DNA of 55,898 bases, taken from NCBI GenBank assembly GCA_002708305.1, contig PANE01000030.1:46264-102161 (forward strand). The letters run 5' to 3'. Numbering within the stretch: position 1 is the stretch's first letter; each line of letters opens with the position of its first letter. Positions 29,974 through 55,880 of this stretch are shown in pieces. A model generated the notes under the pieces. The model worked only from the letters and a program-made list of their open reading frames with translations. It had not been told where the DNA came from and did not search any database. This stretch comes from Rhodospirillaceae bacterium (GTDB taxonomy: Bacteria; Pseudomonadota; Alphaproteobacteria; Thalassobaculales; Thalassobaculaceae). The position numbers and the translations under genes were made by a program.

Positions 29974-31038
29974 TTGATGAAAAATAATAAAATAATAACT
30001 GTTTTCATAGCAATTCTGATTGGTACCGTTGGTGGCTTCATTTTTGCAATCATAAAAATACCCTTGCCTTGGATGTTAGGAGCAATGGTCTTTGTAACTA
30101 TTGCTGCTGTTTCAGGTGTCCCAGTTCTCTTACCGTTCATGCTCAGACAAAGCATGGTAGTTTTCATAGGCGTTTTACTTGGAAGCCAATTTACTCCCGA
30201 ACTTTTTGACCAAATAAGCAGTTGGTTAATTTCTGTCATAGCGATGCTATTTTATGGCATAATCGTGATGTTTCTAGTCCTAAGTTATCTGAAGAAATTT
30301 GGTAATTATGAACCTATAACAGCCTATTTTTCAGCAGCACCGGGCGGCTTGAATGATATGACTATCATTGGTGGAGAAATGGGAGGTGATGATCGAATAA
30401 TTGCACTCACGCAGGCCTCGCGAGTCCTTTTGGTCGTAATGACCATCCCTTTTCTATTTAGGATATTTGGTGGATATGAAGCACCATCTGGTTTACTTCC
30501 AAAGGGACAAGGATTTGATCTGCCATTTCGGGAATGGTGCATTATTGGAATATGCGTGACACTAGGACCTTTCATAGCCAGAAAACTTAAATTGCCGGCA
30601 GCGTTTTTGTTGGGCTCTTTAATACTGACAGCAATTGCTCACATAGCTGGCTGGAGTAACTCATCACCACCTACCGGCCTCGTAGCAGCAGCCCAAGTTA
30701 TTCTTGGTACAGCAATAGGGTGCAGGTTTACCGGAACGGATTATGGCGAAATAACCCGCGTTATAAAAATTTCAGTTGGATCGGCCTTTATACTAATGTC
30801 AACCGCAGTTGGTGCAGGGTTACTTCTAAGTGAAATAACAGGATTACCGTGGTATTTAGTAACGCTGGCGTACGCACCTGGTGGATTAGCCGAGATGAGC
30901 CTTATAGCTTTTGGAATAGGCCAAGACGTACCCTTTGTCGCAACACATCATCTTTGCCGGATTGGCATGGTAATTTTATTAGCGCCAATAGCATTCAAAC
31001 TTATAAAAAAATATTTTTTCATAAAAACCATTGATTAA
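29974..31038 (+). CDS. AbrB-family membrane protein (duplicated AbrB domain)
   Basis: The 354-residue protein has about ten membrane helices and an internal repeat. Each half ends with an APGGL-x-x-M block (APGGLNDMTIIGGEMG and APGGLAEMSLIAFGIG), and each has a paired L-G-x-x-x-G-x-x-F-T helix (GVLLGSQFTP and GTAIGCRFTG). This is the family often mislabelled ammonia monooxygenase or AbrB regulator. It is in fact a membrane protein of unproven, probably transport, function. Its stop shares four bases with the stop of the convergent potA gene. Confidence 0.85.
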   Translation: MMKNNKIITVFIAILIGTVGGFIFAIIKIPLPWMLGAMVFVTIAAVSGVPVLLPFMLRQSMVVFIGVLLGSQFTPELFDQISSWLISVIAMLFYGIIVMFLVLSYLKKFGNYEPITAYFSAAPGGLNDMTIIGGEMGGDDRIIALTQASRVLLVVMTIPFLFRIFGGYEAPSGLLPKGQGFDLPFREWCIIGICVTLGPFIARKLKLPAAFLLGSLILTAIAHIAGWSNSSPPTGLVAAAQVILGTAIGCRFTGTDYGEITRVIKISVGSAFILMSTAVGAGLLLSEITGLPWYLVTLAYAPGGLAEMSLIAFGIGQDVPFVATHHLCRIGMVILLAPIAFKLIKKYFFIKTID

Positions 31039-32144
31039 GAATCATGATCCTCTAGTAGCAACGCAGAGCCTGCAGTCCAATGCATGAGCACCGATTCCCC
31101 TATACACAAATCGATATTCTCTGATCTGTCAGAATGGCTCATTGAAACATTCATTACGATATTCTCATCACCAGAAACTTTAACGTGGTACATAGAACTT
31201 CGCCCCAAATAGGTAATATTATTTATAATACCAGCCAATTTGTTATCGTATTGGTCTATATCGGTAAGCTTTGTTAATTGTATTTTCTCAGGTCTAACCC
31301 CCATAAGATAAGATTGACCAACAGAGATTTCATTTTTACCTTTAATACTAAATAAATCTTTCGTCAGCCCAGTAGTGACTGCACAGAGCTCTCCTTCTAT
31401 TTGTCTAACCTCACATTTAATAAGATTAATTGATCCTATAAAACCTGCTACAAATTTATTGGACGGAGATTCATATAAATTAGTTGGCGATGCCACCTGC
31501 TTAATGCGACCATTATTCATAACAGCAATCCGGTCTGCCGTAGACAATGCTTCCTGCTGATCATGTGTAACCAGTATAAAAGTAATACCCATACTTTTCT
31601 GTAGTCGCACTAATTCCTGTCTCATTTCATTTCTGAGTTTTGCATCAAGTGCCGATAAAGGCTCATCGAGCAATAAAACCTTCGGCCGTTTTACTAATGC
31701 GCGCGCCAATGCAACTCGTTGTAGCTGCCCCCCTGAAAGCTGATGCGGAAACCTATGGTCAAGACCTGATAATTTTACAAGTTTGAGTAACATTTTTACT
31801 CTTTGGTAACACTCTTTTATTGGGACCCCAGTTACTTTCAGCCCAAAAGCAATATTATCCAATACGGTCATATGCGGAAAAAGTGCATAGGATTGAAAAA
31901 CGATATTAAGAGGCCGTCGGTTTGGTGGAATACTTCTCATATTCTCACCGTCGATAAACAATAAACCTGAATCAGGCACTTCAAATCCAGCCAGAACCCT
32001 CAAAAGAGTAGTTTTTCCGCATCCAGATGGACCAACTATCGCAAAGAATTCTCCTTCATAAATACTGAGATCTATTTCCTCTAAGGCATTTTTGATGCCA
32101 AACTTTTTCGTTATACCCTCTATCTTAATGATAGGATTTTTCAC
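31035..32144 (-). CDS. potA: Spermidine/putrescine-type ABC transporter ATP-binding protein
   Basis: The 369-residue ATPase has Walker A GPSGCGKTT (38-46), the signature LSGGQLQRVALARAL, and Walker B VLLLDEPLSALDAKL. A C-terminal TOBE domain of about 110 residues is usual for PotA/PotG. The start is GTG and overlaps the potC stop (GTGA), so the genes are translationally coupled. It drives import by PotB and PotC of the ligand bound by the periplasmic protein. Its 3' end overlaps the AbrB-family gene tail to tail. Confidence 0.92.
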   Translation of the reverse strand: MKNPIIKIEGITKKFGIKNALEEIDLSIYEGEFFAIVGPSGCGKTTLLRVLAGFEVPDSGLLFIDGENMRSIPPNRRPLNIVFQSYALFPHMTVLDNIAFGLKVTGVPIKECYQRVKMLLKLVKLSGLDHRFPHQLSGGQLQRVALARALVKRPKVLLLDEPLSALDAKLRNEMRQELVRLQKSMGITFILVTHDQQEALSTADRIAVMNNGRIKQVASPTNLYESPSNKFVAGFIGSINLIKCEVRQIEGELCAVTTGLTKDLFSIKGKNEISVGQSYLMGVRPEKIQLTKLTDIDQYDNKLAGIINNITYLGRSSMYHVKVSGDENIVMNVSMSHSDRSENIDLCIGESVLMHWTAGSALLLEDHDS

Positions 32145-32992
32145 AATTTTCCAATTCTACTAATTTTCGCTCTGTGGACCCAGAGAGCAATACCCGCGGC
32201 GCAGAGTGTTATTAATAATAGTATCGTCGAGGCAGCGTTTACCTCAGGAGTGACCGAGAACCTTACCATAGAATAGATCTTAATTGGTACTGTGATAGTG
32301 TCGGGCCCTGAAGTAAAAAATGTAATCACAAAGTCATCTAAAGAAAGCGTAAAAGCAATAAGGCCACTCACAATAAGTGCTGGCCGAATATGTGGCAGAA
32401 AAACATTTGTAAAAACTTGGCCTGGACTAGCACCGAGGTCAAACGCAGCCTCTTCTTGTTCTAAATTAAAAGTAGCCAGTCGAGCTCTTATAATTATCGC
32501 TACAAATGGGAAACTAAATAATATATGCGCAAAGGTTATCTTAGAAAGGCTCAGCGGCCAGGGTAAATTATTCGCCCAGCCTATTTGATTAAAGAAAACT
32601 AAAAGTGCCACGCCAATACATATTTCGGGCATAACGACTGGCAAAAGAATTATTCCCTCGTATACTGCCTTAAATGGGAACCTAAACCTCCATAATAATA
32701 ACGCCGTTAATATTCCTAAGATTAAACTACCTAAAGTATTAAAAATTCCTATAGTTAATGAATTAATAAAGGCATCAATTAAACCATCATTTAGGGCGGC
32801 TTTTTCATAATATTTAAACGTAAAACCACGCCAAGTAATATTCCTGCGACTATCATTAAAGGAAAAGATAATTAACACTAATATTGGGGCGTAAAGAAAT
32901 ATAAATGTTACGCACAAAATCACTTTAAACCACCATTGGTAAAAATAATCTAGCGACACCTTTGGGGCTTTATCGTTATTTTTTATTTTCAT
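32141..32992 (-). CDS. potC: Spermidine/putrescine-type ABC transporter permease PotC/PotI
   Basis: The 283-residue permease begins with a helix FIFLYAPILVLIIFSFNDSR, followed by the NITWRGFTFKYYEKAA block typical of PotC. It has the EAA loop QEEAAFDLGASPGQVFTNVFLPHIRP. Six membrane helices are visible. Its ATG overlaps the potB stop by four bases. It forms the channel with PotB. Confidence 0.9.
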   Translation of the reverse strand: MKIKNNDKAPKVSLDYFYQWWFKVILCVTFIFLYAPILVLIIFSFNDSRRNITWRGFTFKYYEKAALNDGLIDAFINSLTIGIFNTLGSLILGILTALLLWRFRFPFKAVYEGIILLPVVMPEICIGVALLVFFNQIGWANNLPWPLSLSKITFAHILFSFPFVAIIIRARLATFNLEQEEAAFDLGASPGQVFTNVFLPHIRPALIVSGLIAFTLSLDDFVITFFTSGPDTITVPIKIYSMVRFSVTPEVNAASTILLLITLCAAGIALWVHRAKISRIGKL

Positions 32993-33876
32993 AATCGACG
33001 CTTATTTTTGTCGAGATATAGATTATTAAAGCATAGGTATCGTAAAGCTAAAATCCCAAAAGTCAGATAAACTAAAACCATCGAGAGTGCTGAGCCAAAT
33101 GGCCAATCGTTAGCATTCATAAATTGCCTTTCTATTACATTGGCTATCATTTGACTGTTCGGCCCCCCTAGCAGTTCTGGAGTGAGGTAGGAGCCTAAGG
33201 CAGGGATAAAAACTAAAATGCAGCCCGAAATTATAGAAGGAGTGATAATTGGAATAATAATACTAGTTAATAATTCTAATTTGGATGCCCCAAGGTCCAA
33301 TGCAGCTTCCAGTAACGTTTTATTAAACCCTTCAAACCCTGCATATAATGGCAAAATCATAAAAGGAAGGTGAACATACACAAGCCCCAGAATAACAGCC
33401 GTGTCGTTGTACAGTAAAGATAATGGCTCAAACGGCACATTAATTAGATCGGCGAACCATTCTAAACCAAAATTGAAGAATCCTCTGGTTCTAAATACAG
33501 CTATTAATGCATAGGTTCTAATTAGAAGATTGACGCAAAACGGTAATATAATAGCAATTAAGAGGATTGATTTCCAGCGTGGAGGAGCACTAGCTATACC
33601 TAGAGCTAGCGGAAACCCAAATAAAAAACAAATGACAGTTGTTATCCCAGCAACTCCAATACTCTTGATAAGAGTAGATAAATAAATAAGATCCGCGGCC
33701 CGGATATAATTATTTAGAATCCAGCTGAGTTCTATATCAATCAGGCCTCGCTTCTCAGAGAAACTAAAGGAACCTATTATAGAAAGGGGAATTAACAAAA
33801 AAATTAATAGCCATAGGGTCGGAGGAATAAAAGTGAGCCAAAATATTAATCTATGACTTCCTACTTGCTTCATCAT
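32989..33876 (-). CDS. potB: Spermidine/putrescine-type ABC transporter permease PotB/PotH
   Basis: The 295-residue permease has six membrane helices, starting with FWLTFIPPTLWLLIFLLIPL. Its EAA loop reads LLEAALDLGASKLELLTSIIIP. It lies 33 bases after the binding-protein gene and overlaps potC. It is a family member by order and sequence. The exact polyamine or other ligand is set by the binding protein and is not proven. Confidence 0.9.
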   Translation of the reverse strand: MMKQVGSHRLIFWLTFIPPTLWLLIFLLIPLSIIGSFSFSEKRGLIDIELSWILNNYIRAADLIYLSTLIKSIGVAGITTVICFLFGFPLALGIASAPPRWKSILLIAIILPFCVNLLIRTYALIAVFRTRGFFNFGLEWFADLINVPFEPLSLLYNDTAVILGLVYVHLPFMILPLYAGFEGFNKTLLEAALDLGASKLELLTSIIIPIITPSIISGCILVFIPALGSYLTPELLGGPNSQMIANVIERQFMNANDWPFGSALSMVLVYLTFGILALRYLCFNNLYLDKNKRRL

Positions 33877-33909
33877 TGATCAATCTGATAAATTTTTAAA
33901 AACTGCTTT

Positions 33910-34986
33910 TTAAGCTGATAGCACACGGCTCCAAGCCTCGTCATAGAGACGCACTACGTCAGCCCCCAAATAAAAGGACGACTCACAGGACGATAGAGTT
34001 TCGTTAGAAGGATAAATAGCTGGGTTTTTGGAATAACTTTCAGGCATTAACTGTTTTGCAGCCTTGTTTGGAGTTGCATATTGTATAAAATCAGCAATCT
34101 TTGCACCTACGCTAGGTTCTAGGATAAAATTGATAAAACGGTGGGCATTTTCTGGGTGAGGCGCGCCCTTTGGAATAGCTAAAGCATCTTCCCACACAGC
34201 TGACCCCTCTTTTGGAACGATATAGGAAATATCTGGGTCTTCCTCCATCACTTGCAGTATATCTCCATTCCATTCCATAGTTATGTCTACCTCACCTGAA
34301 AGCAAAAGGTCTTGTCCATTATCAGGGGCAAAGACCTTGATATTTGGTTTCTGTTTAATGAGTAGTTTTTCAGCTTCTTTGATAATTTTTGGGTCTTTGG
34401 TATTTAGTGAGTATCCCATATACTTAAATGCGGCGCCCAGGACATCGCTCGCCTCACTAAGTAGTGCACATCTGCCTTTGTAGCGATCAGAGTCGAATAG
34501 CCACTTCCAGCTATCCGGCGTACTATTCATCTTTGATTTCCGATAACCTATTCCCATTGTACCCCACATGTACGGAAGAGAATACTTTCGGCCTGGATCA
34601 AATGATGCATCAAAAAATGATTCCTGAATATTAAATCTATTCGGGATCATATCGTCATTTAGTGGCATAAGCATGTCAGCTAATATCATTCGTTCCACAT
34701 AATCACTTGATGGAACGATGAGATCGTAACCGGGGTTACCAACTTTTAATTTTGCAAAGAGTTCATCATTATCAGCAAATAAATCCATTTTTACATTTAT
34801 GCCGCTTGCCACTTTGAAATCTTTCAGCGTCGTCTCGCCTATATATGTATCCCAGTTATAAAAATTCAGTTTTGGCGTTTCATCACACCAAGCTTGTCTT
34901 GAAATAAGCGAAAGCCCCGCAGCAACAGCACCTGTTCCCGCCAAAAACTTCCGCCTCGATAGATGGCCGCCAGGAAATAACTTCAT
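33910..34986 (-). CDS. potD: Periplasmic polyamine-type binding protein with Tat signal
   Basis: This is a family 1 solute-binding protein of 358 residues. The N-terminus carries a twin-arginine signal (SRRKFLAG, then a hydrophobic run ending near QAWC), so it is probably exported folded by the Tat path. The mature part starts TPKLNFYNWDTYIGE, matching PotD/PotF. Trp/Tyr and Asp residues of the polyamine pocket are likely present (YDLIVPSSDYVERM, GSAVWEDALAIP). The ATG at 34986 is chosen over an upstream start because AAGGGGTG precedes it at proper spacing. It is the first gene of the potDBCA operon. Confidence 0.88.
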   Translation of the reverse strand: MKLFPGGHLSRRKFLAGTGAVAAGLSLISRQAWCDETPKLNFYNWDTYIGETTLKDFKVASGINVKMDLFADNDELFAKLKVGNPGYDLIVPSSDYVERMILADMLMPLNDDMIPNRFNIQESFFDASFDPGRKYSLPYMWGTMGIGYRKSKMNSTPDSWKWLFDSDRYKGRCALLSEASDVLGAAFKYMGYSLNTKDPKIIKEAEKLLIKQKPNIKVFAPDNGQDLLLSGEVDITMEWNGDILQVMEEDPDISYIVPKEGSAVWEDALAIPKGAPHPENAHRFINFILEPSVGAKIADFIQYATPNKAAKQLMPESYSKNPAIYPSNETLSSCESSFYLGADVVRLYDEAWSRVLSA

Positions 34987-35142
34987 TAAACACCCCTTAA
35001 AATTGATCACTACTCGAGTATTCTATTTTCAAATCGGTATATTTTTTTAATAGTATAATAGTTGTATAAATAGCTAGCTTAATTTTTAACATTTTTCTTT
35101 TGATTATTTGTCTAATATCAGAAGAAAATTTCACCCAAATGG

Positions 35143-35625
35143 TTGGAAAAAGTGATTAATAAAACAGTCAACACCGTCAACTTCAGAGAAGCGAATGCTA
35201 ACGATAGAAGTGCGCTGGAAGAAATGATTGTGGCTTATTATCTTTTTGATCACCAAACTATAGATAAATCAAATATAAAATCTTCGTTGGATATCGCCCT
35301 TAAAAAAAATCCACATATTGTAATCTGGATAATAGAAGTGAAACAAGAAATAGCAGGGTATCTTGCTGTGGCTATTGGGTTCACAATTGAAGCTGGAGGG
35401 AAAGATGGTTTCTTAGATGAACTTTTCTTAAAAGAGAAATATAGAAATCAGGGCATAGGACGAAAAGCTGTTCAATTTGCTATTGGAATTTGCCCAACTC
35501 TGGGAATACGCAGACTAAGCTTAGAAGTAGAGTCTCATAATCTGCGAGCAAAGCGCCTATACCAAGACATAGGTTTTTTTACACATGACCGCATATTAAT
35601 GTCACATTGGACAGACCAAAATTGA
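35143..35625 (+). CDS. GNAT family N-acetyltransferase
   Basis: The 160-residue protein shows the GNAT core: NFREANANDRSALEEMI at the N-terminus, DELFLKEKYRNQGIGRKAVQFA with the acetyl-CoA loop NQGIGR, and SLEVESHNLRAKRLYQDIGF at the end. The start is uncertain: TTG (35143) or GTG nine bases later, both without a good ribosome binding site; no ATG lies in the right place. It is read divergently from the polyamine-type importer. It might acetylate a polyamine or other amine, but the substrate is inferred only from location. Confidence 0.83.
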   Translation: MEKVINKTVNTVNFREANANDRSALEEMIVAYYLFDHQTIDKSNIKSSLDIALKKNPHIVIWIIEVKQEIAGYLAVAIGFTIEAGGKDGFLDELFLKEKYRNQGIGRKAVQFAIGICPTLGIRRLSLEVESHNLRAKRLYQDIGFFTHDRILMSHWTDQN

Positions 35626-35660: not shown

Positions 35661-36254
35661 ATGAATTCACGAAATACAGCTTTATCCGAGTTCATCACAG
35701 CCCATAAAGCTGTTGTAGACACATTAACTCAATCATCGATTAAGACATTTTTGGGTCGCTGTCACGCGAGCTTGTCAAAGTTGGGAGAACCCAGCTGCAA
35801 AGACATCTCCAACCTAGAGCCGGTCTGTAAATATATTCCTGAAAGCCTAAAACTTGCCAGCAATCAAAGTCCAGAATTAAAACAGTTGGCGCTTAAATTT
35901 GGAAATTTATACACACATCTACCATGGCACCCGAGTGATAGATCATCGGATAAAAAAGGAGCATTTTATAATGGCCACGCCAATGCAGTTATTACGGGAA
36001 CAGGAGGTCTTGAAGAACATAAAAGCGTAAGATTTGGCGCTAGCCTTATCGCACCCCATCTCGAATACCCTTACCATCGTCATCGACCGGAAGAGGGTTA
36101 TTTAGTAATTAGCGAAGGTGATTGGCGACAGGGCAGCGGAGAATGGTTTCGCCGTAACCCTGGTGAGACGGTGCATAACGTGCCAAATATTTGGCACGCT
36201 ATGAGATCAGGTGAGACACCATTACTGGCAGTTTGGATGTTATGGACCGAATGA
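35661..36254 (+). CDS. dddQ: DMSP lyase, DddQ-type cupin
   Basis: The 197-residue protein carries the DddQ metal and catalytic residues at the family spacing: Tyr136, His139, His141, Glu145, Tyr147 and His179. These match Tyr120, His123, His125, Glu129, Tyr131 and His163 of the structurally studied Ruegeria lacuscaerulensis enzyme. The stretch YPYHRHRPEEGYLVISEGDW holds most of them. DddQ splits dimethylsulfoniopropionate into dimethyl sulfide and acrylate using a bound metal ion. It follows the GNAT gene by 35 bases and ends 8 bases from the convergent amidinotransferase gene. No signal peptide is seen. No dmdA or acuI gene is present in the window. Confidence 0.86.
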   Translation: MNSRNTALSEFITAHKAVVDTLTQSSIKTFLGRCHASLSKLGEPSCKDISNLEPVCKYIPESLKLASNQSPELKQLALKFGNLYTHLPWHPSDRSSDKKGAFYNGHANAVITGTGGLEEHKSVRFGASLIAPHLEYPYHRHRPEEGYLVISEGDWRQGSGEWFRRNPGETVHNVPNIWHAMRSGETPLLAVWMLWTE

Positions 36255-36262
36255 GTATTCAT

Positions 36263-37384
36263 TCATTGAATTGGGAAGTAATCCTCGCAGGTTCCCTCTC
36301 GATAAACGTCTGCCGTGCAACAATGTAACCCACCTCCAAAGGCATATGCATCTCGAAGGTCCACTTCTACAACTTCCATGCCTAGTTTATCTAATTGTTC
36401 TGCCTGATAGACCTCTGATTTCTCCACACAAACTGTTTTTGTATCAAGAACGAGAACGTTCATTGACAACCATACGGAAGAATAACAAAGAGGCGGTGGA
36501 GAGTTATGGGCGGGTTGCGCTGAGTCAATAATTTCCCATCCATTTTTATTGAACATCTCCCTCTGTTCCTCGGGAAGCCGCCGTTGTGGATTATTCATTA
36601 TGAGGCCAGGTTTAATTGGCGTGAAGGTAGCATCGATATGAATTGGATACGGATCACCAGGAAAATTGACTGTATGAACTCGATGACCCGGGAAGTGTCG
36701 AGCCAACCAATCGATACCTTTCAAGTTTGTCGTAAATCCGTGCTGAACAACAAGATCTTTGCCAAATCGTAAAACATCTGCCGCATCGAATAAAACTTCC
36801 TCCTCTGTCGTAACAAAAAATTTATTGGCGGTCCATTCTAACCTTTTTTGAACTCCTATTTTATCCGACAAGTAGTCTTGTCTATAGTCGTGATCTGTTA
36901 GCCTTGGTTTTGGAGCTGCCTCATGGCGCATTTCTGAATCTTCATCATAATATTTTTGGAGTAACGGCCTATAGCAAAGGTACTCGAACCATCTGCATCT
37001 ATAAGACATGGTTGCTTCTAATATTTCTTTTCCGACGGTAAGAAGAACATCTCGTGGAGGCATGCATCCAAACATAGTTTCTGCCTGCCAATCTGGAGTG
37101 CTTGTCTTTTGATTAAATTCCATCGGGGTAGGCCTATCCACGCGAATACCACGACCTTCGAGTTGGCTTGCAAACTGATCTAGTAACTCATTAGCTTTAT
37201 CCACCATTTCTTTAGGACGTGGACCAAATTGCCCTCTCATATCACTATCCTCAGGCACCTTGGCATCTAATGCTGGTTCGGGAGCCGGTATGCATGCGCC
37301 ATCTGCCGTCCCAACGATAACGTGCTTCAATGGGTCCCATTCATTCCAACTTGAAACGATGGTTTTTTGTCTTAACTGGTCCAT
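36263..37384 (-). CDS. Glycine amidinotransferase-like enzyme
   Basis: The 373-residue protein closely follows L-arginine:glycine amidinotransferase. The opening is WNEWDPLKHVIVGTADGACI, then ILEATMSYRCRWFEYLCYRP, and the three catalytic parts: FDAADVLRFG (Asp200/Asp203), IHIDATF (His249), and GGGLHCCTADV (Cys355). Such enzymes move the amidino group of arginine to an amine such as glycine or a related acceptor. The position next to the active His, a Met in the human enzyme, is Ile248 here, so the acceptor may differ from glycine. The start has AAGGA in front. The product may be a guanidino compound used as an osmolyte or intermediate; this is inference. Confidence 0.88.
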   Translation of the reverse strand: MDQLRQKTIVSSWNEWDPLKHVIVGTADGACIPAPEPALDAKVPEDSDMRGQFGPRPKEMVDKANELLDQFASQLEGRGIRVDRPTPMEFNQKTSTPDWQAETMFGCMPPRDVLLTVGKEILEATMSYRCRWFEYLCYRPLLQKYYDEDSEMRHEAAPKPRLTDHDYRQDYLSDKIGVQKRLEWTANKFFVTTEEEVLFDAADVLRFGKDLVVQHGFTTNLKGIDWLARHFPGHRVHTVNFPGDPYPIHIDATFTPIKPGLIMNNPQRRLPEEQREMFNKNGWEIIDSAQPAHNSPPPLCYSSVWLSMNVLVLDTKTVCVEKSEVYQAEQLDKLGMEVVEVDLRDAYAFGGGLHCCTADVYREGTCEDYFPIQ

Positions 37385-37512: not shown

Positions 37513-38553
37513 CTAAAAAGGTTCAAGCATTACTTTTATCTGATTGGAAGGCTTCTTTAATTCTTCAAAAGCTCGAGGAAAGTTTTCTAGATTGACACTT
37601 TCGCTTACCAAGCCGATTGCGTCGATCCTATTTTGCGCCAGCATATCAAGTGTCATTGCAAAATCACTTCGGTCATAACAAAAACAAAATGAGATATCGA
37701 CTTCTTTAATTACTGCAGTTGTCGGTTGAAAGGAATCTGAAACCATACAGAGCCCAACGACAACAACTCGAGTATAATTTGGCGCATAGTTAATCGCTAA
37801 CTGCATTGAACCGGCAATACCAACGGCATCAAACACAACAGACGGATGGCTACCTGATAGCCTTAAAAACCTCTCAGGAACATTTTCTTTGGAAGCATCG
37901 ATGGCGGCAGTAGCTCCAAATCTAGCTGCTTCATCTGCTCTCGCTTTTACTAAATCGCTGACGATTATATGTCGCGCTCCAAAAAACTTACACCACAAGG
38001 CAATTGATAGTCCCACTGGCCCTGCACCGATTATAAGAATATTATCTCCAACTTTTAAACATGCCCGTTTAACTGCGTGTAACCCAACGGCCAAAGGCTC
38101 TACCAGCGCGCCCTCTTGAAAACTTATATTATCGGGAAGCTTAAAGGTTTCGTTCGCGCCTACCCGAGTATATTCCGCGTAAGCCCCTGGATGGCCAGGG
38201 CTTGCCCGGTTTAAAACCTTGTAACACCGATGTGGCCTGCCAGCGAGGCAATCGGAACAGTGGCCACAACCAATTTGAGGCATTGCACAAACACGATCAC
38301 CTACTTTCCAATCGCTACCAACTTCAGTTCCTAGCTCAACGATCTCACCAGCAAACTCGTGTCCCATAACGGCCCCGGGGTTTATATCACGCCAGCCAGA
38401 TTCTGCATTATTGACCTCCGACCAATGCAAATCAGTTCCGCAAATACCACAGGCACAAACTTTTAATATCATGTCAGTAGGAGATGGCTCAGGATCAGCT
38501 ATACTCTCTATAGACAGCGGCAAACCTGAGCGATGAAAAACAGCAGCTCTCAT
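37513..38553 (-). CDS. Zinc-dependent medium-chain alcohol/polyol dehydrogenase
   Basis: The 346-residue protein has the catalytic zinc ligands Cys38, His65 and Glu66 (CGICGTD and GHEFAGE). It has four structural-zinc cysteines at 96, 99, 102 and 110 and the cofactor motif IIGAGPVGLSIALW. It resembles threonine, butanediol and polyol dehydrogenases. The zinc sites distinguish it from the zinc-free acrylyl-CoA reductase AcuI, so it should not be assigned to that step of DMSP breakdown. AAAGGAG precedes the ATG. It lies 128 bases upstream of the amidinotransferase gene's neighbourhood on the same strand. Confidence 0.87.
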   Translation of the reverse strand: MRAAVFHRSGLPLSIESIADPEPSPTDMILKVCACGICGTDLHWSEVNNAESGWRDINPGAVMGHEFAGEIVELGTEVGSDWKVGDRVCAMPQIGCGHCSDCLAGRPHRCYKVLNRASPGHPGAYAEYTRVGANETFKLPDNISFQEGALVEPLAVGLHAVKRACLKVGDNILIIGAGPVGLSIALWCKFFGARHIIVSDLVKARADEAARFGATAAIDASKENVPERFLRLSGSHPSVVFDAVGIAGSMQLAINYAPNYTRVVVVGLCMVSDSFQPTTAVIKEVDISFCFCYDRSDFAMTLDMLAQNRIDAIGLVSESVNLENFPRAFEELKKPSNQIKVMLEPF

Positions 38554-38740: not shown

Positions 38741-39574
38741 ATGTTTGGAAATAATACAATGAGCCACCCTGATTTTATCAACCATACTGTAGACGCTTTA
38801 AATATCTCCGCTAGTTCTGAGAATAAAATTCACGATGACAGTATTGCTAAACGTTTTGGTTTTCAGGGAGGCTTAGTTCCTGGTGTAGAGGTGTATGCTT
38901 ATATGACAAATCCAATCGTTCAATTTTTTGGTTATCAATGGTTGGAGATTGGAAGTATGGAATGTAAATTTATTAAGCCGGTCTATGATGGAGACCAAAC
39001 TGATATAAAAGCAAGTAAAAATCGAAATACTGAAATTTTGATAGAGGTCACAACACCAACCAACTTTTGTGCTCGTGGGATAGCAAACCTAGATAAAGCA
39101 GAAAAAAAAATTCAGCTTACCCCAGATGAAAAGATAATCCCGAGTCCCAATTTTAACTCTCGGCCCAAAGCATCTCCAGCATCGCTTAACAAAGGTAAGT
39201 TACTTGGAACGTTTCAGCAATTAATGATAGATAAAGATCAACACCAATACCTGCAAGATATAAGGGAATCATTAAGTCTTTATAGAGATGAGAAGATAAT
39301 TCACCCAGGGTGGGTGCTTCGAATGGCAAATAAAGCATTATCCACAAATGTAAAATTAGGACCATGGATACACGTTGGCAGTAAAATTCAAAATTATAAT
39401 GTCGCCCACTGCGGGGATACCTTATCTGCCCAAACATCAATTTCCGATTCTTATGAGCACAAAGGGCATTTATTTGTTGAGATGGACGTAAAAATCGTAA
39501 ACAGTATTAAATGTTTTACCCACATCATACATACTGCAATTTATCGACCAAGGCCGGTAAATTCTAACGATTAA
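38741..39574 (+). CDS. Double-hotdog MaoC-like protein
   Basis: The 277-residue protein looks like two hotdog domains in one chain. The N-terminal half has the block IHDDSIAKRFGFQGGLVPGVEVYAYM, typical of MaoC-like hydratases and related thioesterases. The C-terminal half contains a second hotdog pattern, VAHCGDTLSAQTSISD. MaoC-type proteins add water to enoyl-CoA. The gene precedes the enoyl-CoA hydratase gene by 46 bases, so both may act on the same acyl-CoA chain. A second Met six residues in is another possible start. Catalytic activity is not certain, because the canonical Asp/His dyad is only partly visible. Confidence 0.72.
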   Translation: MFGNNTMSHPDFINHTVDALNISASSENKIHDDSIAKRFGFQGGLVPGVEVYAYMTNPIVQFFGYQWLEIGSMECKFIKPVYDGDQTDIKASKNRNTEILIEVTTPTNFCARGIANLDKAEKKIQLTPDEKIIPSPNFNSRPKASPASLNKGKLLGTFQQLMIDKDQHQYLQDIRESLSLYRDEKIIHPGWVLRMANKALSTNVKLGPWIHVGSKIQNYNVAHCGDTLSAQTSISDSYEHKGHLFVEMDVKIVNSIKCFTHIIHTAIYRPRPVNSND

Positions 39575-39620: not shown

Positions 39621-40394
39621 ATGCCAGAATTTTTTAACGCTGATCGGGACGGTCATATTTTAACCATCACACTCAATCGTCCTGAAAGAATGAATGCTTT
39701 ACATTCACCTGCACATTTTGAATTACATGAAATTTTTGACGAGTTTGAAAATGACCCAGACTTATGGGTTGGTATCTTAACTGGAGCAGGTGAACGCGCC
39801 TTTAGTGCAGGAAACGACCTAAGATGGCAAGCTGAAGGAGGTTCACGAGAGAAGCCTTCTAGTGGTTTCGGTGGGATAACAGAACGGTTTGAACGAAGCA
39901 AACCAATGATAGCAGCTGTTAATGGCGTAGCAATGGGAGGTGGGTTTGAGCTTGCTTTAGCTTGCGATATCATAATAGCCGCAGAAAATGCGTTATTTGC
40001 GCTACCCGAGCCTAAAGTTGGTTTGGCCGCACTAGCAGGTGGGCTCCATCGACTTCCACGAATGATCCCTCTAAAACGAGCTATGGGTATGATTCTTACG
40101 GCAAGACATGTACCGGCAAAAGAAGGATATGAATTAGGGTTTGTTACGCAGCTTGTTCCAGAAGGAGAGGCTCTATCGGCAGCTAAAGAGTTCGCTAATC
40201 AGATCATGGAGTGTTCTCCTGTATCAATTAGGACAAGCTTGGATGTTGTTCGGCGAGGCTTGGAACACAGCGATGTAAAAGCTGCGATGTCTGCTGAATA
40301 CGACAGCGTCAAAACACTATGGAATAGTGAGGACCTGATAGAAGGTCCCTTAGCTTTTTCGGAAAAAAGAAAACCAAATTGGAAAGGCAAATAG
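39621..40394 (+). CDS. Enoyl-CoA hydratase/isomerase family protein
   Basis: The 257-residue crotonase has the oxyanion-hole blocks FSAGNDL and NGVAMGGGFELALACD. Both catalytic glutamates are present: Glu110 in GGGFE and Glu130 in ALPEPKVGL. This argues for a true hydratase rather than an isomerase or a broken copy. It would add water to 2-enoyl-CoA in the cytosol. GAGAGG precedes the ATG. The next gene starts three bases after its stop, so the two are coupled. Confidence 0.88.
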   Translation: MPEFFNADRDGHILTITLNRPERMNALHSPAHFELHEIFDEFENDPDLWVGILTGAGERAFSAGNDLRWQAEGGSREKPSSGFGGITERFERSKPMIAAVNGVAMGGGFELALACDIIIAAENALFALPEPKVGLAALAGGLHRLPRMIPLKRAMGMILTARHVPAKEGYELGFVTQLVPEGEALSAAKEFANQIMECSPVSIRTSLDVVRRGLEHSDVKAAMSAEYDSVKTLWNSEDLIEGPLAFSEKRKPNWKGK

Positions 40395-53088: not shown

Positions 53089-54495
53089 TTAATTATCATT
53101 CAAAGTTACTATCTCTTCTAATGATAATGGTTTTATTGGAGGACGAACCCTAAATGCCCCCACATCTGCTGGTTTTTTTTCAAGGGCCTTGCTCATCACT
53201 TCCGTGACCGAAGTCCCACACATTCGCCCCTGACAAATACCCATACCGCATCGTAGGAAGGCTTTTGCTTGATTCGGACCAGAACAACCTTTCTTAACAA
53301 CCTCTCTTATTTCAGCGGCAGTGATCTCTTCGCAACGGCATATAATCGTTTTGTCAGGCACCTCTCCTATTCTTTCTGGCGCGGGAAACAAAGTATCCAA
53401 GAAAGGCCTAATACCTTCATCTAATAAACGACGGAATTTCCTATCCTCAATAATTAAATCCCTTTGACTCTCTTTTATGTATTCAAGCCTTTCCAAAATA
53501 ATTATTCCTGCAATAGCTCCGCTATATTCAGCAGTTCTTGCACCTGAAACGCCTGCTCCATCACCAACGACAAAAACACCAGAGAGCGATGTTTCACCCC
53601 AAGAGTTAACCACGGGGGAAAATGATCGTTGTCGGGGAGACCAAACATGTTCAAGATCAAGCAATCTAGTCAATTGAACATTTGGAAGGATGCCCTCATG
53701 CAATGCGAGCGTGTCCGCTTTCAGGCAATGTTTTGTTTCATTTACCTTAAAAGATAGATTTTGTAGTCTACCATCACCTGAAGCATTCAACTCAGTCACG
53801 TTGCGATAAACCTTTATATTAGATTGCATAATTTTATTTGTTAAATTCCATCCCTTATAGAGATAATCACCTGCAAATAACGCCCTTGGAAAATGTCTCA
53901 AAGCTTTTAAAAAACTCCCCTTAGGCGAAGTATCTAAAATTGCTAAAATACTAATACCCGCACCTATAAGTTGACTTGCCAACTGAAGTACCAGAGGGCC
54001 AGCACCCGCCAAGACTAATTTTCCGGATGGGTACATACCTGAATTTTTCAGAACAGATTGAACGGCTCCTACCGTCATAACGCCAGGCAAGGTCCAGCCT
54101 GGAATAGGAACAGGACGCTCCATCGCACCGGTAGCTATGACTATATATTTTGTTTCAATTTTTTTTGAAACCCCGGCTTGACTATAAAAAATATTATAGA
54201 GGCCGTCTAAGTTGCGGCACTCAATATGCCAAACCATACTACCTGGTTGGTAATCTTTAGCTTGTGATCTAAATTTTTTTGTAAGCCTAGCTCCATCATG
54301 GTACGCGGAACCTAGCCAACTAAGTTCGTTCGGGCGATCACGCATCACCCTATCAATTGCTTTATAAATTTGTCCTCCAGGTTCACTTTGCTCGTCAAGA
54401 ATTACCGCACGACCACCATACTCATGGATCATATTTGAGGCACTCATTCCAGCAGGACCAGCACCAATAATTACAACATCAACACACAAGGTCAT
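53089..54495 (-). CDS. FAD/NAD-binding subunit of a multi-subunit amine dehydrogenase (HcnB / opine oxidase A-like)
   Basis: The protein has two dinucleotide-binding motifs (VVIIGAGPAGMSASNM at the start and KLVLAGAGPLVLQLASQL in the middle). A C-terminal BFD-like [2Fe-2S] segment carries cysteines at about 386, 388, 416 and 421 (CRCEEIT and CGMGICQGRMCG). This is the architecture of hydrogen cyanide synthase B, opine oxidase A and hydroxyproline dehydrogenase subunits. It passes electrons between the oxidase flavin and the chain. The ATG at 54495 is chosen over an upstream start because AGAGG precedes it and the FAD motif begins nearby; it overlaps the small subunit by 17 bases. Confidence 0.85.
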   Translation of the reverse strand: MTLCVDVVIIGAGPAGMSASNMIHEYGGRAVILDEQSEPGGQIYKAIDRVMRDRPNELSWLGSAYHDGARLTKKFRSQAKDYQPGSMVWHIECRNLDGLYNIFYSQAGVSKKIETKYIVIATGAMERPVPIPGWTLPGVMTVGAVQSVLKNSGMYPSGKLVLAGAGPLVLQLASQLIGAGISILAILDTSPKGSFLKALRHFPRALFAGDYLYKGWNLTNKIMQSNIKVYRNVTELNASGDGRLQNLSFKVNETKHCLKADTLALHEGILPNVQLTRLLDLEHVWSPRQRSFSPVVNSWGETSLSGVFVVGDGAGVSGARTAEYSGAIAGIIILERLEYIKESQRDLIIEDRKFRRLLDEGIRPFLDTLFPAPERIGEVPDKTIICRCEEITAAEIREVVKKGCSGPNQAKAFLRCGMGICQGRMCGTSVTEVMSKALEKKPADVGAFRVRPPIKPLSLEEIVTLNDN

Positions 54496-54787
54496 CAGAA
54501 ATAAGCCTCTTTGCTTTCTCACGTTTGATGCTCATACCACTTCTCACAGGCACAAGGCACGCTTGTTGGTGGCCAACTCCATCTATCTCAACTAAACATT
54601 CAAAACAGACGCCCATCATACAATATGGGCCCCTGGGTGTATTAGAAACTGGAGCATCACGAAAATTCATAATACCGGCTGCCATGAGCACGCTTGCAAC
54701 CATTTCACCCTCCAGAGCATCAAGCACCGTTCCATCAAACTCAATTTTAATTAAGCAATTTTTATTTTCATTAAACCTATCGAACAT
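54479..54787 (-). CDS. Small [2Fe-2S] subunit of a multi-subunit amine dehydrogenase (HcnA-like)
   Basis: The 102-residue protein has four cysteines in plant-ferredoxin-like spacing: Cys56-x4-Cys61-x2-Cys64-x12-Cys77 (PYCMMGVCFECLVEI and CLVPV). This matches the small subunit of HcnABC and of hydroxyproline or opine dehydrogenases. The ATG at 54787 is preferred over one 36 bases upstream because AGAGG precedes it. It overlaps the flavoprotein gene upstream by 11 bases and the large flavoprotein downstream by 17 bases, so the three chains are translationally coupled. Confidence 0.85.
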   Translation of the reverse strand: MFDRFNENKNCLIKIEFDGTVLDALEGEMVASVLMAAGIMNFRDAPVSNTPRGPYCMMGVCFECLVEIDGVGHQQACLVPVRSGMSIKREKAKRLISDDLVC

Positions 54788-55880
54788 CGAACCTCTTAGG
54801 AGAGAAAGCGTTAAATTTACCATTAAAATCGTTACCCAGTAGCTCGGGAGCTAACTTTAATGCATGAGCGGCAGCTAACGTGACGCCACTATGACAAGTG
54901 ATCACAAATGCCCCAGGAAAGTTACTTGATTCTTCGTAGATAGGAAATCCATCCGGAGACATGATTCGCAGTGCACTCCAACTTCTTATCATCCTAAGTT
55001 TTTTTAACGCAGGAATCTTCCTAACAGCCTTATCAATTATTTTAGCAGCCATTTCAAAATTGAAACCCGAGTCAAAGCCTACGTTTTCTTTAGTTGCACC
55101 CAACATTACAGTACCTTCGTCAGTCTGGCGGATTGCCCCCAAAACATAATTAAAGAGCGGTGAAGTTCTCTCTGTAACGACAATGTGCCCTCTTTCGGGT
55201 CCAGTTGGAATATCCAGCCCAACAAATTCCCCTAGAGCTTTATTTCCATTTCCTGCAGCTAAGATAACTTTATCACTCAAAAAGTAACCTTCGTTAGTTA
55301 TAATTTTGAAACCTCGTATTTGTGGGATGATTTTCTTTACTTCGTGGTCAGGTCTATAAATGAGCCCAGATTCAATACATTTCTGATGCAAGGCCCTAAG
55401 AGTGTAAAGAGGATTCACTATCCCATCATATGGACAATAGGATGCACCGACCACCTCAGGCCCCACACTTGGCTCCATTCTTCGCACTTCATCACCACTT
55501 ATCATTCGCCTACCATTTTCGGCAACATTAGGTTGATTATGCATACGATTAATGGAATTCTCAAAGTCCATGTACTCTGCCTCGTCTAGACATAGTTCTA
55601 GACCGCCTGGCCGATGATGGCCCACATTGATACCCGTCTCTTCAACCAAAAGCTCTGCAAAATTTGGCCAAAGGTCAGATGACTCGCGGCTCCATGTTGC
55701 ATATTCATGCATGCCATCACCTTTTGACTGCACCCAAACTAAACCAAAATTACCCCGGGAAGCTCGAAAGGCTGTGTCCCCTTCGTCTAAAATAGTAACA
55801 GTTGCGCCTAATTTTAAAAGCCCATAAGAGACCGCAGCACCAACTAATCCCCCTCCTATAACAATGAAATCTGAAGTCAT
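54777..55880 (-). CDS. FAD-dependent amine oxidase subunit (DAO family)
   Basis: The 367-residue flavoprotein has the FAD motif FIVIGGGLVGAAVSYGLLKLGA at the N-terminus and an FAD/substrate block near the end (SWSALRIMSPDGFPIYEES, CHSGVTLAAAHALKLAPELL). It belongs to the glycine/D-amino-acid oxidase family. With the two following genes it forms the three-chain pattern of HcnABC, opine oxidase and D-hydroxyproline dehydrogenase. It oxidises the C-N bond of an amino acid or derivative. GGAATAAAT precedes the ATG. It lies at the window edge, so upstream partner genes may be missing. Confidence 0.88.
   Translation of the reverse strand: MTSDFIVIGGGLVGAAVSYGLLKLGATVTILDEGDTAFRASRGNFGLVWVQSKGDGMHEYATWSRESSDLWPNFAELLVEETGINVGHHRPGGLELCLDEAEYMDFENSINRMHNQPNVAENGRRMISGDEVRRMEPSVGPEVVGASYCPYDGIVNPLYTLRALHQKCIESGLIYRPDHEVKKIIPQIRGFKIITNEGYFLSDKVILAAGNGNKALGEFVGLDIPTGPERGHIVVTERTSPLFNYVLGAIRQTDEGTVMLGATKENVGFDSGFNFEMAAKIIDKAVRKIPALKKLRMIRSWSALRIMSPDGFPIYEESSNFPGAFVITCHSGVTLAAAHALKLAPELLGNDFNGKFNAFSPKRFDVR

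Follow-up and report, generated by a model that had tools for sequence, protein, structure and literature searches.

A DMSP-lyase-like cupin outside the DddQ clade, with a polyamine-type importer and an amidinotransferase as neighbours

The cupin gene of a marine bacterium analysed here, which a first-pass annotation had called a DddQ-type DMSP lyase, is placed by sequence comparison in a separate clade of DMSP-lyase-like (DLL) cupins. It lies at positions 35661-36254 of the window, by which we mean the whole stretch of 55,898 nucleotides that was analysed. The sequence data support the label 'DMSP-lyase-like cupin of an amine/betaine module', and the phylogeny does not support 'DddQ-type DMSP lyase'. 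In the reading that we favour, with a probability of roughly 0.6, the product is a mononuclear-metal cupin of a distinct DLL clade whose members work in modules that import and degrade cationic amino-acid osmolytes, most of them N-methylated or guanidino compounds. We think it probable that the window gene has been mislabelled and that its enzyme acts in the degradation of amines or betaines.

The reading frame is intact and encodes 197 amino acids, and stops occur throughout its antisense strand. The Pfam model PF16867 ('DMSP_lyase') matched the protein with 133.2 bits (E = 9e-39; curated cut-off 27), which by profile statistics is far beyond chance. Same-genus orthologues showed 75-78% identity and shared the gene order. 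Judged by these comparisons, the frame is a real, conserved gene and its product a member of the DLL cupin family. A profile search of the organism's own genome, whose assembly is ~92% complete, returned the window frame as its single PF16867 gene. When 385 genomes of the class were searched with the window protein, a group scoring above 100 bits was followed by a gap down to matches of 66 bits or less. Relatives were held by 252 plasmid records, and no match was found in phage records. A structure prediction from three sequences gave a pLDDT of 39. The gene and its neighbours are arranged as follows.

31035-32144, minus strand: PotA-type ATPase (ABC ATPase motifs; same cluster as ProV/PotA ATPases)
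32141-32992, minus strand: PotC-type permease (open reading frame; position and synteny)
32989-33876, minus strand: PotB-type permease (open reading frame; position and synteny with PotD/PotA)
33910-35010, minus strand: PotD/PotF-type (polyamine-type) substrate-binding protein of an ABC importer (PotD/PotF-type PDB matches, E down to 1e-64)
35143-35625, plus strand: GNAT N-acetyltransferase (PF00583; synteny)
35661-36254, plus strand: DLL cupin of a non-DddQ clade (PF16867, alignment, residue table, trees), with predicted metal ligands H139, H141, E145 and H179, Y136, the probable base Y147, and the clade-specific H106 and N173
36263-37384, minus strand: AGAT-type amidinotransferase of the pentein fold (match to human AGAT; synteny)
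37513-38553, minus strand: zinc-dependent alcohol/polyol dehydrogenase, threonine-dehydrogenase-like (PF08240, PF00107; synteny)
38741-39574, plus strand: MaoC-like hydratase (weak PF01575; synteny; kept in the block)
39621-40394, plus strand: enoyl-CoA hydratase/isomerase (PF00378, 203 bits; synteny; kept in the block)

The annotation had rested on six family residues, and these are indeed present: in the alignment, Y136, H139, H141, E145, Y147 and H179 occupy the motif-1 and motif-2 positions of solved DddQ. According to a review, the two motif-1 tyrosines are conserved in cupin DMSP lyases and not in other cupins (PMC5395565). The Y..H.H...E.Y motif and the motif-2 histidine were kept in nearly every DLL sub-branch examined, soil rhizobia included. 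Because soil rhizobial members that lie in proline-betaine clusters carry the six residues too, these indicate family membership and not DddQ, and we rejected them as a marker of DddQ. Two other positions distinguish the clades: the window's clade has His106 (in 'GHAN') against Tyr or Phe in the DddQ clade, and Asn173 against His. The DddQ-clade features as derived here, an aromatic residue at 106 and His at 173, are absent from the window protein. Across a 28-member alignment, His106, the metal ligands and Tyr147 were invariant. Trp195 aligns with Trp178 of DddQ and is kept in the window's branch, and Trp192 aligns with Trp110 of DddK.

Direct comparison with the solved DddQs gave E = 3.8e-5 (4b29), 0.003 (5cu1) and 0.018 (4la2), and the stretches that matched were about 27-34% identical; the published similarity cut-off for calling DddQ is an E of about 1e-30 (PMC5395565, PMC8520302), which the window protein does not reach. 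With RnDddQ as query on the own genome, the window gene scored 27 bits (E 6.4e-6), and the same query found DddQ-like genes in other genomes. The window protein differs in this respect from DddU, whose identity to the other cupin lyases is below 15%.

In a 70-row maximum-likelihood tree, in which the DddQ references are domain fragments from printed alignments, the window protein fell within a 31-row clade (support 100/99), the three solved DddQs and six relatives formed a separate clade (100/99), and another PF16867 subfamily, from the window's order, formed a third (100/100). When long-branch rows were dropped, both the window's clade and the DddQ clade received 100/100, and AU tests rejected the grouping with DddQ of the window's genus (p = 0.0055) and of the order's rows (p = 0.0155); for the full set, the latter grouping gave p = 0.095, which is not significant. 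Since DddL, DddW, DddY and DddU are not among its rows, the tree tests DddQ only. The annotation thus stands as far as it describes a PF16867 cupin with a complete metal site and catalytic tyrosine, and fails on the DddQ type, as the gene sits in its own clade, apart from DddQ and within PF16867.

The surroundings described by the annotation were borne out for the PotABCD-type importer (31035-35010), the GNAT gene and the amidinotransferase; the MaoC-like and enoyl-CoA hydratase genes, which it had called distant, actually lie 2.5-3.4 kb downstream of the cupin. The GNAT gene ends 35 bp upstream of the cupin on the same strand and is kept there in the window's genus and in genus g3; the two are probably co-transcribed. 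The PotD/PotF-type gene is divergent from the cupin, and its product scored 223 bits against NCBIfam PotD, below that model's cut-off. Convergent with the cupin, and next to it in three genera of the order, is the amidinotransferase gene. Its product matched human L-arginine:glycine amidinotransferase (1jdx) with E = 3e-85 and keeps the DAAD, HIDAT and GGGxHC active-site motifs; it is a close bacterial homologue of animal AGAT, the first enzyme of creatine synthesis. The zinc-dependent dehydrogenase is conserved together with it.

The order PotABCD, GNAT, DLL cupin, AGAT-type amidinotransferase, zinc-dependent dehydrogenase, MaoC and enoyl-CoA hydratase was kept in the window's genus and in g3. 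Beside the DLL gene, only PotABCD was kept in genus g7, and only the amidinotransferase side in genus g2. A Pot-type importer is found next to the DLL gene in family f38 as well as in three genera of the order to which the window belongs. In f38 (genomes G199 and G296), a DDAH/arginine-deiminase-like pentein and a formate-tetrahydrofolate ligase come after the importer and the DLL gene, and almost all of these genes share one strand. A Pot-type importer, the cupin and a guanidine-acting enzyme therefore stand together in two separate lineages, the window's branch and f38. Because the importer and the amidinotransferase are kept beside the cupin in several genera, the neighbourhood is not accidental. 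Farther along the window (53089-55880, minus strand), three overlapping genes resemble, by eye, an FAD/[2Fe-2S] amine or opine oxidase-type dehydrogenase.

Many relatives of the cupin lie in proline-betaine clusters. In Rhizobium, Sinorhizobium, Shinella and two further genomes (G642, G506), the DLL gene is directly 3' of a 678-residue flavin oxidoreductase, and the genes most often found near the pair are ProVWX, a P5C-reductase-like gene and a TetR regulator. The oxidoreductase is 90% identical to R. etli stcD, annotated as N-methylproline demethylase, and 72-73% identical to Paracoccus hpbA, annotated as N-methyl-L-proline N-demethylase. A 2025 study located stcD, of stachydrine catabolism, on pSymB (PMC12239276). 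A DLL gene directly downstream of stcD/hpbA was also found in Paracoccus, in a genome of the same class (G387) and in one of another class (G761), the last with the same set of TetR, EtfA, EtfB, P5CR-like, StcD and DLL genes. In Phyllobacterium, the DLL gene follows a Rieske oxygenase and reductase on the same strand, with an stcD-like gene about 2 kb off. In Paracoccus pantotrophus, the order is hpbD, Rieske reductase and oxygenase, ProVWX, hpbA, DLL, EtfB and EtfA; a quick tree placed this DLL protein in the window's clade on a long branch (SH-aLRT 99). The presence of both genes in that one cluster weakened a simple split of labour between the cupin and the betaine epimerase HpbD, which we had considered. 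The rhizobial proline-betaine-cluster DLLs belong to the same clade as the window protein (100/99).

Some hpbA/stcD loci are without a DLL gene, so the cupin is an accessory, non-obligatory part of them. The proline-betaine setting is also not simply transferable to the window, because no StcD orthologue was found in the own genome; the best StcD-like match is 28% identical and lies elsewhere in that genome. DLL members of families f68, f81 and f83 had no clear amine context, and neighbours differed between sub-branches. No AcuI or DmdA homologue was found beside DLL genes in 49 fetched loci over 7 kb. The RefSeq/GenBank name of the stcD/hpbA-linked cupins of rhizobia and Paracoccus plasmids is 'dimethylsulfoniopropionate lyase (family)'. 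Rhizobium operons also showed a second, distinct DLL-family gene after EtfBA (L097:11395-12087, L099:11356-12051 and L100:11455-12147); Rhizobium proline-betaine modules can carry two different DLL cupins. On a Gemmobacter fulvus plasmid (L174:5641-6324), a longer DLL labelled 'DMSP lyase' lies outside the window's clade, flanked by an AMP-binding ligase, two enoyl-CoA hydratases and a CaiB-like CoA-transferase, with an ABC importer on the other side.

Genes for handling DMSP were sought elsewhere in the own genome, as the annotation had proposed for acuI, prpE and dmdA. An AcuI/YhdH homologue (397 bits, over the cut-off) and a 371-residue DmdA-like protein were found, and a PrpE-like ligase scored 696 bits, under its cut-off. 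The DmdA-like protein matched 3tfh with E = 7e-107; the PDB name of this entry is GcvT-like aminomethyltransferase, and we take it to be the Pelagibacter DmdA structure. On these matches, the organism probably demethylates DMSP whatever the window cupin does. Since AcuI, the PrpE-like ligase and the DmdA-like demethylase are encoded away from the cupin, the cupin is not necessarily required for the use of DMSP. DddP was considered and rejected for this genome: it has only three M24 proteins, and the one closest to DddP in length is similar to Xaa-Pro dipeptidases and has no DddP structure among its best 60 matches. In the same genome (G000), a 253-residue upstream reading frame on contig C14 (L153:236-2166) overlaps a Xaa-Pro dipeptidase/creatinase-like M24 gene by a few bases. 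Contigs C8, C4, C27, C37 and C14 encode several GCV_T-domain proteins of dimethylglycine dehydrogenase or sarcosine oxidase size, which suggests much methylated-glycine catabolism.

A mechanism for the favoured reading can be outlined from DddK, whose metal is coordinated by two His, Glu and His; the carboxylate of the substrate binds to this metal, and Tyr64 takes the alpha-proton (PMC10686828). By analogy and alignment, His139, His141, Glu145 and His179 would hold a metal that binds the substrate carboxylate, Tyr147 (equivalent to Tyr64) would remove the alpha-proton, and Trp192, the counterpart of the cation-binding Trp110 of DddK, would stack on the cationic group of the substrate. Because the window protein has the metal ligands and tyrosine of DddK and the aligned Trp192, its reaction likely starts with removal of the alpha-proton from a carboxylate that bears a cationic group. 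In DMSP, the cation is on the beta-carbon and is eliminated; in proline betaine and N-methylproline, the substrates known for the rhizobial and Paracoccus modules, it is on the alpha-carbon and there is no beta-leaving group. As the latter two cannot beta-eliminate, epimerisation or tautomerisation would be more plausible in the stc/hpb setting. We infer that the outcome is less likely a DMSP-style beta-elimination than an alpha-epimerisation, or a tautomerisation, of a betaine or imine, and this is the least certain part of our reading. In the window organism, the substrate would probably be imported by the divergent PotABCD system. A more specific proposal, that the clade represents a new betaine/amino-acid epimerase or isomerase combining metal-bound carboxylate and Tyr147 deprotonation with His106 (or Tyr136) as the second acid/base, is speculative and in our estimate improbable.

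The protein may instead be a diverged cupin that truly cleaves DMSP (or DMSOP) despite falling outside the DddQ clade, yielding DMS or DMSO and acrylate for AcuI and the PrpE-like ligase encoded elsewhere. We regard this as unlikely, although the metal site is complete, both motif-1 tyrosines and the aromatics W192 and W195 are kept, and the same-genus relatives bear the NCBI label 'SAR116 cluster'. The retained Trp195 leaves room for DMSP-like substrates, which counts against our reading, and the AcuI/YhdH, PrpE-like and DmdA-like genes make DMSP handling by the organism probable. However, genes for AcuI and PrpE are common and have housekeeping roles in propionate and acrylate metabolism, AcuI and DmdA are absent from every fetched neighbourhood, and the clade is separate from DddQ and widespread in soil rhizobia within proline-betaine operons. 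The similarity to solved DddQ (E = 4e-5 to 0.02) is likewise far short of the 1e-30 cut-offs.

The same lyase chemistry could act on a different cation, as in beta-alanine betaine or a 3-guanidino acid; the products would be an amine or guanidine and an acrylate-type acid, which the nearby MaoC and enoyl-CoA hydratase would help to use. The Pot-type amine importer, the AGAT-type enzyme and the MaoC and enoyl-CoA hydratase genes of the conserved block fit such a beta-onium lyase, but the stc/hpb pathway, home of most relatives, is without a known beta-onium substrate, no acyl-CoA ligase was seen beside the gene, and the MaoC/enoyl-CoA hydratase block is absent near many clade members; we hold little expectation for it. 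An accessory, non-catalytic or repair cupin of demethylation modules, handling formaldehyde or iminium and keeping the lyase-like site as a relic, would agree with three observations: the gene is flanked by those for the demethylase and for the electron-transfer flavoproteins of the demethylase, genes of formaldehyde detoxification follow it in Rhizobium, and some hpbA loci do not have it. The invariant metal ligands and Tyr147 favour catalysis, however, and such a role appears very improbable.

Estimates of how much dimethyl sulfide, a climate gas, is produced draw on counts of DMSP lyase genes in genomes and metagenomes. Since members of the window's clade pass the Pfam cut-off, have every 'diagnostic' residue and are labelled 'DMSP lyase' in rhizobial plasmids, such counts may be inflated, as may the claim of DMSP cleavage by soil symbionts. 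Lei et al. (2018) reportedly left open the function of non-lyase DLL members, and the clade offers a ready sequence set with a simple signature (His106/Asn173 versus Tyr/Phe and His) for probing it. Were the clade an epimerase or isomerase, it would supply a previously unassigned step in the catabolism of proline betaine and related osmolytes, common to rhizobia and marine bacteria.

Compared with known systems, the window protein shares PF16867, the metal ligands, both motif-1 tyrosines and a similar length with the roseobacter DddQs (RlDddQ, 4la2; RnDddQ, 4b29; RpDddQ, 5cu1), but differs from them in its separate clade, in His106/Asn173 and in its gene neighbours. With SAR11 DddK (6a53, 5tfz), it has in common the metal ligands, the catalytic tyrosine (Tyr64 = Tyr147) and an aromatic cation-binding residue, whereas DddK is a short single-cupin protein of weak sequence similarity (profile E = 1.6e-5). 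The DLLs of proline-betaine clusters (stcD in Rhizobium and Sinorhizobium, hpbA in Paracoccus) have the same clade and residue set, with about 36-41% identity to the window protein; their partners are ProVWX, StcD/HpbA, a Rieske demethylase and ETF, whereas those of the window cupin are PotABCD and AGAT.
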